A stretch of DNA of 64,000 nt from Haloarcula vallismortis ATCC 29715 (GTDB taxonomy: Archaea > Halobacteriota > Halobacteria > Halobacteriales > Haloarculaceae), in contig NZ_AOLQ01000069.1 of NCBI RefSeq assembly GCF_000337775.1, positions 62,001 through 126,000 on the forward strand, written 5' to 3'. The position numbers were made by a program, and so were the translations under genes. Positions 56,767 to 60,192 of the stretch are shown piece by piece (the stretch's first letter is position 1; each line of letters opens with the position of its first letter). The notes under the pieces are model-generated. The model worked only from the letters and a program-made list of their open reading frames with translations. It was not told where the DNA came from and searched no databases.

Positions 56767-58056
56767 ATGTTCGACGGACTGAAGGACAAACTCAGCGGGT
56801 TCACGAGTGACGTCGAGGAGGACGTCGACGACGACGCACTCGAAGCGGAGGACGAACCAGACGCCGACGAGGCGGCTGGGGAAGCACCTGCTGATGAGGC
56901 GAGTGAATCTGAGCCTGCGACGGACGCGCAGCCGTCCGAAGACGACACGCAGGTGGCGAGACAGACAGCCGAAACCGACCGGTCACAGGCTGACGCTGAA
57001 CCGCCAGCCGCGGACGCTGTGGCGACAGATGAGTCAGCCACAGCACCGGCTGCGGAAGTCGGAGACACGGACGCGGTTCCAGACGACGAGTCCCAGTCGG
57101 ACGACGCCGCGGAAACCGCGGCTGACTCAGCGTCCGAAGCCGATTCGGGGTCAGACGAAGACGACGGCGGCCGCGGCCTCGCCGCGAAGGCGAAGCTCAT
57201 GGCGACCGGGAAGACCGTCATCGAGGAGGACGACCTGCAGAGTCACCTCGATGACCTCGAACTGGCACTGCTGTCGAGTGACGTGGAGATGAGCGTCGCA
57301 AACGAGATTCTCGACGGCGTGAAGGAGAACCTCACGGGCCAGACCCGCCGACGGCTCTCCAGCACGGGGAACCTCGTTCGGGATGCACTCCGAGAGTCGC
57401 TGTACGACGTGATTAACGTCGGCCAGTTCGACTTCGACGAGCGCGTCCAGCAGGCCGACAAGCCCGTCACCATCGTGTTCACCGGGGTCAACGGTGTCGG
57501 CAAGACGACCTCGATTGCGAAACTCGCCCAGTACTTCGAGGAACGCGGACTCTCGACGGTGCTCGCCAATGGCGACACCTACCGCGCCGGGGCGAACGAG
57601 CAACTTGAGAAACACGCCGAGAACCTCGGCAAGAAGATAATCACCCACGAGCAGGGCTCAGACCCGACGGCGGTCGTCTACGACGCCGTCGAGTACGCCA
57701 AGGCAAACGACATCGACGTGGTGCTTGGCGATACAGCCGGCCGGCTCCACACCTCCGACGACCTGATGGCCCAGTTGGAGAAGATCGACCGCAACATCGA
57801 TCCGGACATGACGTTGTTCGTGGACGAGGCGGTCGCGGGACAGGATGCCGTCAACCGGGCCCGGGAGTTCGACAACGCCGCCGAGATTGACGGGGCGATA
57901 CTGACGAAAGCCGACGCCGACCCGCAGGGCGGCGCGGCCATCTCCGTCGCACACGTCACCGGCAAGCCGATTCTCTTCCTGGGAACCGGCCAGGACTACG
58001 ATGACCTCGAACCGTTCGACCCCGAGGAGATCGTCGATAGTCTCATCGGCGAGTAG
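56767..58056 (+). CDS. ftsY: Signal recognition particle receptor FtsY
   Basis: This GTPase of 429 aa docks SRP-ribosome complexes at the membrane. It has an acidic A domain of about 145 residues (Asp, Glu, Ala), an N domain (TVIEEDDLQSHLDDLELALL) and a G domain with GVNGVGKTTSIAKLAQYF (G1), DTAGRLHTSDDLM (G3), TKADADPQGGA (G4) and GTGQDYDDLEPFDPEE. Its partner SRP54 is encoded 3.7 kb away. The long acidic region is a halophile trait. Confidence 0.95.
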   Translation: MFDGLKDKLSGFTSDVEEDVDDDALEAEDEPDADEAAGEAPADEASESEPATDAQPSEDDTQVARQTAETDRSQADAEPPAADAVATDESATAPAAEVGDTDAVPDDESQSDDAAETAADSASEADSGSDEDDGGRGLAAKAKLMATGKTVIEEDDLQSHLDDLELALLSSDVEMSVANEILDGVKENLTGQTRRRLSSTGNLVRDALRESLYDVINVGQFDFDERVQQADKPVTIVFTGVNGVGKTTSIAKLAQYFEERGLSTVLANGDTYRAGANEQLEKHAENLGKKIITHEQGSDPTAVVYDAVEYAKANDIDVVLGDTAGRLHTSDDLMAQLEKIDRNIDPDMTLFVDEAVAGQDAVNRAREFDNAAEIDGAILTKADADPQGGAAISVAHVTGKPILFLGTGQDYDDLEPFDPEEIVDSLIGE

Positions 58057-58343
58057 GCCTCGGACTTCCCGGTTATTGTTGCTGCAATCTCTGGGCTATC
58101 GAGAGCCATCGTGGACTCTGATTGTGTCGAACCCGGAGTGTTCCTCCTTTCGGCTGAGAGTGGACTACGCATAATGCGGCAAATATCACGACATAAGCGG
58201 AGGTGTGGTCGTTTTCGCCGACAGGACCGCGTTGAAGTCGATTGCCGTGTATCACTGACGTACACACCAGCGTAGCGTGACTCCAATGCAGACAATCGAA
58301 CGACGCGACGGTTCTAGCGATATCGGTACCGGAGGAGCCAACG

Positions 58344-58454
58344 ATGTCTGACAGACGCTACTGTCGGCAAGCCGCGCCGGCTGATGTTGCACCTGAACTC
58401 ATCGGGCCGTCCCCTGATGGTCGGAGTCTCCCTGGTGACGAGCACAGGTCGTAA
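58344..58454 (+). CDS. Possible small ORF with strong ribosome site (36 aa)
   Basis: ATG 58344 (MSDRRYCRQAAPADVAPELI) is preceded by GGAGGAG at an ideal 7-8 base spacing. A 21-codon frame from 58286 (MQTIERRDGSSDIGTGGAND) overlaps its start by eight bases. The peptide has no recognised domain. Overlap plus SD suggests coupling. Confidence 0.3.
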   Translation: MSDRRYCRQAAPADVAPELIGPSPDGRSLPGDEHRS

Positions 58455-58487
58455 CTGACTGGTGCGAGCAGGTGCCCGCTGTTTCAG

Positions 58488-58595
58488 GTGACAGTGACGA
58501 TAACTGCGGCAATGGGAGTTCTCACAGGAGTGGGGGTGCTGACCACTGGAACCACGGGTTATTACGTTGTTAAACGGTGGCTGAGTGGGATTTGA
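58488..58595 (+). CDS. Possible single-helix membrane peptide (35 aa)
   Basis: GTG 58488 gives MTVTITAAMGVLTGVGVLTT, then GTTGYYVVKRWLSGI, one hydrophobic helix with a basic end. It is in frame with the ORF at 58344 but separated by a TAA. It may be a small gene or a decayed fragment. Confidence 0.3.
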   Translation: MTVTITAAMGVLTGVGVLTTGTTGYYVVKRWLSGI

Positions 58596-58733
58596 CCGAT
58601 GAGTCGCTGTTGACTCACAGCGCAGGCCGGCACGTCCGTGGGCGCAGATACCTATACACTCGATAACCGCTCGGAAAGCGCGTGCATCGGAATCGTCCGA
58701 GCATCGAAACACACCGTGACACGTCGGTATTTA

Positions 58734-58780
58734 GGTGGTTGAAGCGAAAGCCACCCGTGCATCCGGTTGAAACCCCGGAT
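58734..58780. repeat. Two adjacent inverted repeats (hairpins)
   Basis: GGTGGTT (58734-58740) pairs with AGCCACC (58749-58755), seven pairs with one G-U. Five bases on, ATCCGG (58761-58766) pairs exactly with CCGGAT (58775-58780). A TATTTA box is at 58728-58733. It could be a terminator, an untranslated RNA or a protein site. Confidence 0.35.
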
Positions 58781-58928
58781 TTGAACTAATCGTGATCTGA
58801 ACCAGACTGTTTATGATTGTTCTGTGAACCGATTCAGCTTCGGGTGTGACTAATCCATTCCGTCGGCCCTCCGTCAGACGCTTAGCAGGTCATTCATAAA
58901 CTGCCCGGCTTCGCTTCGGGCAAACGCT

Positions 58929-59435
58929 ATGGGACGACCCACATCTCGACGGAACGTTATCAAAATCGCAGGCGGCGCACTCGTCGCGCTCGCTGGCTGT
59001 AGTGACACTGGCGGTAGCGGTACGGAGTCCGACGGCGGTGGCGGCGGTGCCGAAGCTCCAGGCACATCTACGGCAGCAGAGACTGACGCGATGACCGAAG
59101 CTGGTACCGAGTCGCAGACGGACACTGAAGCCCAGACCGAAGAAGAAACCGGGATGAATACCGAGACGGAACTCGGCGAGAACGAAACTGATGCTCTCGG
59201 AAACGAGACCGAGATCCCGGATAATGAAACCGAACTGCCCGGCAATGAGACCGAAGTACCGGGCAACGAAACCGAAATACCTGAAAACGAGACAGATACT
59301 CCGGGCAACGAAACGAATATACCCGATAACGAAACCGAAATACCTAGCAACGAGACTGACCTGCCCGGTAATGAAACCGGCACAGTCGGGAACGAGACAG
59401 GCAACGAAACGACCGCCAACGAAACCGGAGCATAA
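58929..59435 (+). CDS. Tat lipoprotein with an array of N-glycosylation sequons
   Basis: This 168 aa protein has a twin-arginine signal (TSRRNVIKIAGGALVALAGC) ending at a lipobox cysteine, so it is lipid-anchored outside. After a Gly/Glu/Thr-rich spacer (residues 22-84) it is made of ten heptads NETxxPx (residues 85-154) and three more NET units. Each N-E-T is an N-X-T glycosylation sequon, 13 in all. No globular domain remains, so it is likely an extended glycosylated stalk or surface spacer. An ATAAA box lies about 30 bases upstream. Confidence 0.8.
   Translation: MGRPTSRRNVIKIAGGALVALAGCSDTGGSGTESDGGGGGAEAPGTSTAAETDAMTEAGTESQTDTEAQTEEETGMNTETELGENETDALGNETEIPDNETELPGNETEVPGNETEIPENETDTPGNETNIPDNETEIPSNETDLPGNETGTVGNETGNETTANETGA
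59181..59390 (+). repeat. 21-base coding tandem repeat (ten NET heptads)
   Basis: Ten 21-base units encode NETDALG, NETEIPD, NETELPG, NETEVPG, NETEIPE, NETDTPG, NETNIPD, NETEIPS, NETDLPG and NETGTVG. DNA copies differ (AACGAAAC, AATGAAAC, AACGAGAC), while the NET triplet is kept exactly. Confidence 0.85.
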
Positions 59436-59486: not shown

Positions 59487-60137
59487 CTACTCTCGGGCGG
59501 CCTCGACGGCATCGACGAACTCCGCGGCCTGTTCGCGGACGCCGTCCATATCGTTGTTCTCGATTGCTTCGTAGTTGACCAGTGCCGAGCCTGCCCCGAC
59601 GGCAACCGCGCCGGCATCAAAGAACTCGTCGACGTTGTCGGTCGAGACGCCACCAGTCGGCATGATCGGCACGTCGCCGAGCGGGCCCTGCAGCGCGCCG
59701 ATGTGGCCGGGACCGACCGTCGAGGCGGGGAACATCTTCAGGATGTCCGCACCCGCTTCCATCGCATCGGCGGCCTCTGTCGGCGTCATGACGCCGGGGA
59801 TCGCGAGGACGCCCTCGCGGTTACACACGTCGATGACGTCCTCGTTTAGGTTCGGCGCGAGGACGAACTCCGCGCCGGCCTCGATGACGTTGCGGGCGGC
59901 GGCGGCGTCCATGACCGTCCCGGCCCCGATGATGGCGTCGGTGTCGTCGAGTGCCTTGTCGACGGCGGCGATCATGTCCGAACAGCGCTTCGCGTCGGCC
60001 GTCAGCTCCAGCGCCGTGACGCCGCCTTCGTGGACGGCTGTCGCCACGTCGACCATCTTTTCCTCGGGAATCCCGCGCAGGACTGCTGTGACGCCGCTGT
60101 CGACCAGTTCCTGTTGTACCGCCTGTTTGCTCGTCAT
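59487..60137 (-). CDS. kdgA: KDPG aldolase
   Basis: This class I aldolase (216 aa) splits 2-keto-3-deoxy-6-phosphogluconate to pyruvate and glyceraldehyde 3-phosphate. It has GVTALELTADAKR (catalytic Glu), IIGAGTVMDAAAARNVIEAG, the Schiff-base lysine in ADILKMFPASTVGP and MPTGGVSTDNVDEFFDAG. It belongs to the bacterial Eda type. ATG 60137 (MTSKQAVQQELVDSG) is the family start. With the dehydratase at 23.2 kb it gives two Entner-Doudoroff steps in this window. Confidence 0.92.
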   Translation of the reverse strand: MTSKQAVQQELVDSGVTAVLRGIPEEKMVDVATAVHEGGVTALELTADAKRCSDMIAAVDKALDDTDAIIGAGTVMDAAAARNVIEAGAEFVLAPNLNEDVIDVCNREGVLAIPGVMTPTEAADAMEAGADILKMFPASTVGPGHIGALQGPLGDVPIMPTGGVSTDNVDEFFDAGAVAVGAGSALVNYEAIENNDMDGVREQAAEFVDAVEAARE

Positions 60138-60192
60138 GGGCGCAACTGTGACGGGGTGGCCCAAAAGCGTGTCTGAACCGCCGGAGCACTCG

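Follow-up and report, generated by a model that had tools for sequence, protein, structure and literature searches.

Between ftsY and a convergent KDPG/KHG aldolase gene, the window (i. e., the whole stretch of 64,000 nucleotides of Haloarcula vallismortis DNA that was analysed) carries a gene for a small predicted Tat lipoprotein, hereafter the NET protein, the C-terminal half of which is dominated by Asn-Glu-Thr (NET) triplets (Table 1). The open reading frame is present as a preliminary description of this DNA had reported it, with a length of 168 amino acids, and so are the Tat lipoprotein motifs SRRNVIK and LAGC. Beyond the aldolase gene follow a cupin gene, a gene for a probable membrane transporter (assigned by eye) and srp54. 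On the opposite side, the approximately 870 bases between ftsY and the NET gene (58060-58928) are without a clear gene; in sister species, the gene in this slot begins about 140-180 bases past ftsY.

Table 1. Genes and sequence features in and around the NET gene (positions are those of the window).
Feature	Position	Strand	Details
ftsY (SRP receptor), left flank	56767..58056	+	PF00448, 5.8e-69
Promoter-like block CTTAGCAGGTCATTCATAAACTGCC with TATA-like TTCATAAA	58881..58905	+	~32 bases before ATG
NET-array lipoprotein gene	58929..59435	+	ORF, 168 aa, TAA stop included
Tat signal peptide (predicted)	58929..58997	+	residues 1-23, twin arginines R7-R8 (SRRNVIK, residues 6-12)
Lipobox LAGC	58989..59000	+	residues 21-24, Cys24 predicted to be lipid-modified
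Acidic Thr-rich membrane-proximal segment	59001..59180	+	residues 25-84, sequon-free in Har. vallismortis
Sequon array	59181..59432	+	residues 85-168, 13 NET
KDPG/KHG aldolase gene, right flank, convergent	59487..60164	-	PF01081, 1.2e-40

The motif CTTAGCAGG..ATTCA.AAA, located about 32 bases upstream of the ATG, is invariant across the 15 NET orthologues described below, and its conservation suggests probable expression of the gene. Judged by what is typical of haloarchaeal promoters, this block would be a TATA-like element and the mRNA probably leaderless.

Most haloarchaeal lipoproteins use the Tat pathway, and LAGC has been demonstrated as a lipobox core in haloarchaea.(PMC2945643) In the NET protein, R8 and C24 are separated by 15 residues, within the range of 12-21 residues past the second Arg at which the lipobox Cys of Tat lipoproteins is placed.(PMC2945643) In an alignment of 10 orthologues, R7, R8, N9, V10 and K12 as well as L21, A22, G23 and C24 are invariant. 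The proximal segment (residues 25-84) consists of 27 % D+E and 22 % T. A Pfam search of the protein returned no match, and its AlphaFold2 model is devoid of any folded part (pLDDT 48, pTM 0.09); the chain is hence predicted to be intrinsically disordered. There is no paralogue with an array in the same genome, the next best match (E 5.5e-4) being restricted to the N-terminal third.

The sequon array

NET triplets begin at residues 85, 92, 99, 106, 113, 120, 127, 134, 141, 148, 155, 159, and 164, that is, with ten exact seven-residue steps (eleven triplets in register) followed by steps of four and five. All 13 sequons are confined to the last 84 residues (85-168), as had been counted before, and Pro is absent both at X and directly after T in each of them. 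When these 84 residues were shuffled 20,000 times with their composition kept, a mean of 2.5 and a maximum of 8 sequons were obtained, as compared to the 13 observed, and the reversed NET pattern gave 0 hits among the matches listed for 391 haloarchaeal genomes; a chance origin of the array is ruled out by these two controls. The sequon density of 7.7 per 100 residues likewise sets the protein apart from every other open reading frame of at least 120 codons in the window (2 or fewer).

On the DNA level, the 13 triplets are spelled in 8 ways over their nine bases (AAC/AAT, GAA/GAG, and all four ACN codons). Tandem Repeats Finder detected periods of 21, 42, and 63 bases with just 67-75 % matches, which argues that the array is no fresh DNA repeat. 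Recent slippage was thus dismissed as the source of most of the array, both on account of these matches and of the eight spellings.

Orthologues, selection and origin in Haloarcula

Orthologues were sought in 32 Haloarcula genomes with the NET protein, the flanking genes and the DNA between the flanks. In 15 of the 32, the NET gene lies beside the KDPG aldolase gene, and in 12 of these 15 ftsY is found directly on its other side, while G028, G023, and G004 have about 4 kb of extra DNA between ftsY and the NET gene. The 15 genomes form one clade in the ftsY tree (support 97/99, or 98/98 with outgroups, the misbehaving long branches G103 and G213 in the latter tree not being relied on). G023 furthermore harbors a 786-residue frame with a match to the sequon array of the NET protein (L031, G023:C1:300866-301153; 49 %, E 9e-11).

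The conservation in homologues on which the preliminary description had made its idea depend is observed throughout: each of the 15 orthologues has 9-15 N-X-T/S sequons in an array of 61-101 residues, preceded by an acidic part of 57-75 residues, and in 14 of the 15 the last sequon lies two residues from the protein end. The number of sequons differs between species, which agrees with the earlier suggestion of a variable repeat number; the slippage invoked for it, however, does not fit in any recent form, as the repeat DNA is too diverged. The spacing of seven proved to be dispensable, since two orthologues use mixed spacings (six or seven residues in G004, four to seven in G023). Together with the presence of Pro within the repeat, this also rules out a fixed heptad geometry such as that of a coiled coil.

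Among the triplets of the orthologue arrays, 157 are NET, whereas another 24 differ from it at X only (NGT 6, NDT 5, NVT 4, NMT 4, NQT 2, NAT 2, NKT 1) and one NES still is a sequon. Sequons were lost by replacement of N, giving TET (some of the 12 TET counts are overlaps inside NETET), SET or GET, and once by replacement of T, giving NVI. In the alignment of 10 orthologues, N106 and T108, N113 and T115, as well as N120 and T122 are invariant, but the X between them is not. The former picture of a fixed NET on varying DNA therefore holds for the DNA with its eight spellings, while NET itself is not rigidly fixed among orthologues, most replacements keeping the sequon.

Nonsynonymous versus synonymous events on the tree amounted to 9/8 for N, 19/32 for X, and 4/57 for T, as compared to 194/115 for the other array positions. 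In six close pairs, omega-like ratios were 0.07 for N, 0.12 for X, and 0.08 for T versus 0.85 between the motifs, and the corresponding event counts were 6/21 in NET codons versus 43/20 in other array codons (Fisher p 7e-5), a test limited by small counts, by the use of G005 in two of the pairs and by a possible mixing of repeat copies in the alignments. Judged from these substitution patterns, purifying selection acts strongly on N, X, and T, whereas the residues in between drift almost freely. When mutational opportunity is counted, the middle Glu turns out to be constrained almost as strongly as Asn, which indicates that selection favours an acidic sequon and not simply N-X-T. The notion of a free X between a fixed N and T is weakened by the same result, and the selection for the triplet that had been proposed at the outset is borne out, namely for the acidic sequon including its Glu.

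A constrained Glu at X would also be in keeping with an unglycosylated acidic tether, in which NET were a variant of Glu/Thr/Asp linkers kept for charge or solubility in salt and the sequons were incidental, all the more so as the proximal segments and the sister proteins are rich in TETE/GETE and D+E make up 20-30 % of the array in each orthologue. Such a tether, however, accounts neither for the constraint on the uncharged Asn nor for the still stronger one that the tree reveals for T, and changes of X to G, V, A, M, Q or K retain the sequon. We consider it rather unlikely (see also the heptad counts in the next section).

The ftsY slot of other Haloarcula genomes offers clues to the origin of the protein. 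In seven of them, it is occupied by a Tat lipoprotein of about 300 residues with a TETE linker and DUF4397, in G001 and G026 by a shorter TETE lipoprotein (about 100 residues) devoid of any domain, and in G014 by a domain-less lipoprotein of 106 residues with three NET. PF14344 (DUF4397) is not recognized in the NET protein, unlike in its syntenic sister proteins. Nevertheless, in six array-less genomes the best match of the NET protein is the ftsY-slot protein (E 1.6e-8 to 8e-6; DUF4397 is present in five of the six), and these matches beat the best paralogue of its own genome. In the tree, the NET clade is bracketed by DUF4397 genomes, its nearest neighbour being G008 (DUF4397; 89/77). In 29 genomes from other genera of the family, no similar lipoprotein was detected immediately past ftsY. 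In view of the slot synteny, the best matches to slot proteins and the DUF4397 genomes flanking the clade, the NET protein most likely arose by loss of DUF4397 and elaboration of the linker, with the direction of this loss taken from a single gene tree, the deep branches of which are weak. Between the promoters of the NET and the DUF4397 forms, no clear resemblance was seen, and nothing informative on function was found in the DUF4397 literature.

Loss of the domain raises the question of whether the gene product is a decaying remnant that drifts while its repeats expand by replication slippage. Even though DUF4397 is present in the slot of sister species and missing here, and repeat number varies, this scenario is very improbable: the frame is open and conserved in 15 of 15 clade members, as is the promoter, the NET codons are under strong purifying selection, and the array DNA is diverged instead of freshly slipped.

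NET heptads in other haloarchaea

Defined as three NET heptads in register, such arrays occur in 66 of the 391 haloarchaeal genomes, which represent 23 of 86 genera. The array is thus not unique, and the NET protein is less exceptional than it first appeared, given that NET arrays recur across haloarchaea; this recurrence is the more interesting point. In a matched set of 182 genomes outside Haloarcula, NET heptads were present in 26, DET heptads in 13, and TEN heptads in three, one of the latter being a DNA heptamer microsatellite and one lying within a NET array. The microsatellite, (ACTGAGA)n at G197:C43:90336-90421, is an accidental match to the TEN control. Haloarchaeal proteins contain far more Asp than Asn, and the excess of NET over DET heptads in spite of this argues that NET is over-used. 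For an acidic tether, neither this excess nor the scarcity of the reordered TEN, with its identical composition, would be expected.

Of 16 NET-heptad proteins elsewhere, 12 have an export signal by eye, three have their N-termini cut off, and one is not a credible gene. Particularly close in layout to the NET protein are L117 and L119 (genus g29) and L126 (genus g23), in which a Tat-like signal and a lipobox precede stretches of acidic TETE or of Thr-rich sequence as well as a NET-rich tail and in which, likewise, no domain was seen. They differ in belonging to other genera, in their loci and in their repeat unit; their resemblance to the ftsY-slot NET protein is possibly convergent.

Other NET heptads are embedded in different surroundings. 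L116 and L128 are DUF4397-type proteins with the heptads in a linker (L116) or in a C-terminal NETEMPA tail (L128). A fragment of a surface-type protein (L118; 675 codons) contains 55 sequons, 27 of them NET; its NET(D/G)V heptads are clustered between domains that are repeated. GDGNETP heptads, along with long DGADG(T) tracts, characterize L123, L124, and L125, a family of exported proteins in which the Pro after the sequon T may hinder glycosylation.

A putative glycan brush and comparable proteins

The genome of Har. vallismortis encodes an STT3/AglB oligosaccharyltransferase with a WWDYG motif, and the NET protein has what an AglB-dependent N-glycoprotein should show in its sequence, i. 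e., 13 sequons and predicted export alongside AglB in the same genome. In Haloferax volcanii, 39 N-glycoproteins, some of them lipobox proteins and one a Tat lipobox protein, are modified via AglB,(PMC8241124) and archaeal glycosites display little preference at X apart from the absence of Pro.(PMC8342417) The best explanation, which we regard as reasonably probable, is that the NET protein is a Tat-exported, lipid-anchored, intrinsically disordered, and N-glycosylated polyanionic bristle, both glycosylation and function being deduced from the sequence. Going by the motifs, the preprotein would be exported via Tat and processed at Cys24, the lipidated form of which would anchor the protein at the outer membrane surface of the cell. 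The first 60 residues could then act as an acidic, Thr-rich and sequon-free spacer, while the outer 60-100 residues would offer 9-15 N-X-T sequons to AglB, with N-glycans presumably attached to many of them after export. The product would be a brush, located in the gap that separates the membrane from the S-layer or slightly above it, of acidic peptide and, probably, glycans that are acidic as well. It would serve as a hydrated coat or spacer, not as an enzyme or a binding domain. Such a brush protein most likely arose in one Haloarcula clade when DUF4397 was lost and sequons spread through the TETE linker.

Haloarchaeal S-layer glycoproteins have a Thr-rich O-glycosylated region, and one may envisage that in the NET protein, too, Thr and not Asn is modified, yielding an O-glycosylated stalk. 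The Thr content of the proximal part would suit this alternative, and Tat lipobox proteins are among the O-glycoprotein candidates of Hfx. volcanii,(PMC8241124) yet it leaves unexplained why an Asn is conserved two residues before Thr. While O-glycosylation may coexist with N-glycosylation, we deem it improbable as the explanation of the array.

Viewed as an N-glycosylated bristle, the NET protein combines known kinds of proteins, namely Tat lipoproteins and archaeal N-glycoproteins, in that a real, selected and conserved array is carried by a domain-less lipoprotein; the preliminary reading as a glycosylated lipoprotein stalk is likely to be right in outline. With haloarchaeal Tat lipoproteins, it shares the twin-arginine signal, the LAGC lipobox, and an acidic Thr-rich linker after the Cys,(PMC2945643) but no folded domain follows, and the linker with its 9-15 sequons is the whole protein. 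The NET protein would represent a case of a lipoprotein linker turned into an entire protein. The DUF4397 Tat lipoproteins of Haloarcula (L025, L147) have the genomic slot as well as the best-matching signal and proximal region in common with it; unlike the NET protein, they keep DUF4397 (two matches), have 0-3 sequons and lack an array. Export and N-X-S/T sequons are shared with the AglB-dependent N-glycoproteins of Hfx. volcanii, among which are lipobox proteins.(PMC8241124) HVO_2160, the largest protein of this species, has 19 confirmed N-glycosites,(PMC8241124) which are spread over a long chain, in contrast to 13 predicted sites within 84 residues. The large folded repeat domains and the C-terminal anchor of S-layer glycoproteins are absent from the NET protein, which has 168 residues, a disordered model and an N-terminal lipobox. 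Eukaryotic mucin-type stalks are similar solely in the way they would work, as disordered, repeat-based and densely modifiable extracellular chains; the NET protein has N-X-T instead of O-glycosylation sites and no homology to them.

Tentatively, one might go further and propose that haloarchaea repeatedly build domain-less lipoproteins whose sole task is to carry dense acidic N-X-T arrays, that is, an N-linked counterpart of mucins in the form of a brush of anionic glycans, anchored by lipid between the membrane and the S-layer, of which the ftsY-slot protein, having dropped DUF4397, would be the clearest member. In the open-licence literature, we found no description of the NET protein or of an archaeal N-linked mucin-like repeat. 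If its sites are occupied, the array would be very dense in N-glycans for an archaeal protein. As a simple repeat with a site number that naturally ranges from 9 to 15 across 15 species, it would then provide a tractable test of what dense surface N-glycosylation does for life in salt, as well as a natural ruler by which to gauge the site occupancy achieved by AglB.

The composition of the protein has a practical consequence as well. The 145 residues of its mature form include 40 Asp/Glu and zero Lys or Arg, so that no internal tryptic peptides can arise and trypsin-based proteomics would miss it, which would explain the absence of such proteins from trypsin-based surveys. The same holds for most of the clade, as 12 of the 15 mature orthologues are free of Lys/Arg and the remaining three contain one such residue each.
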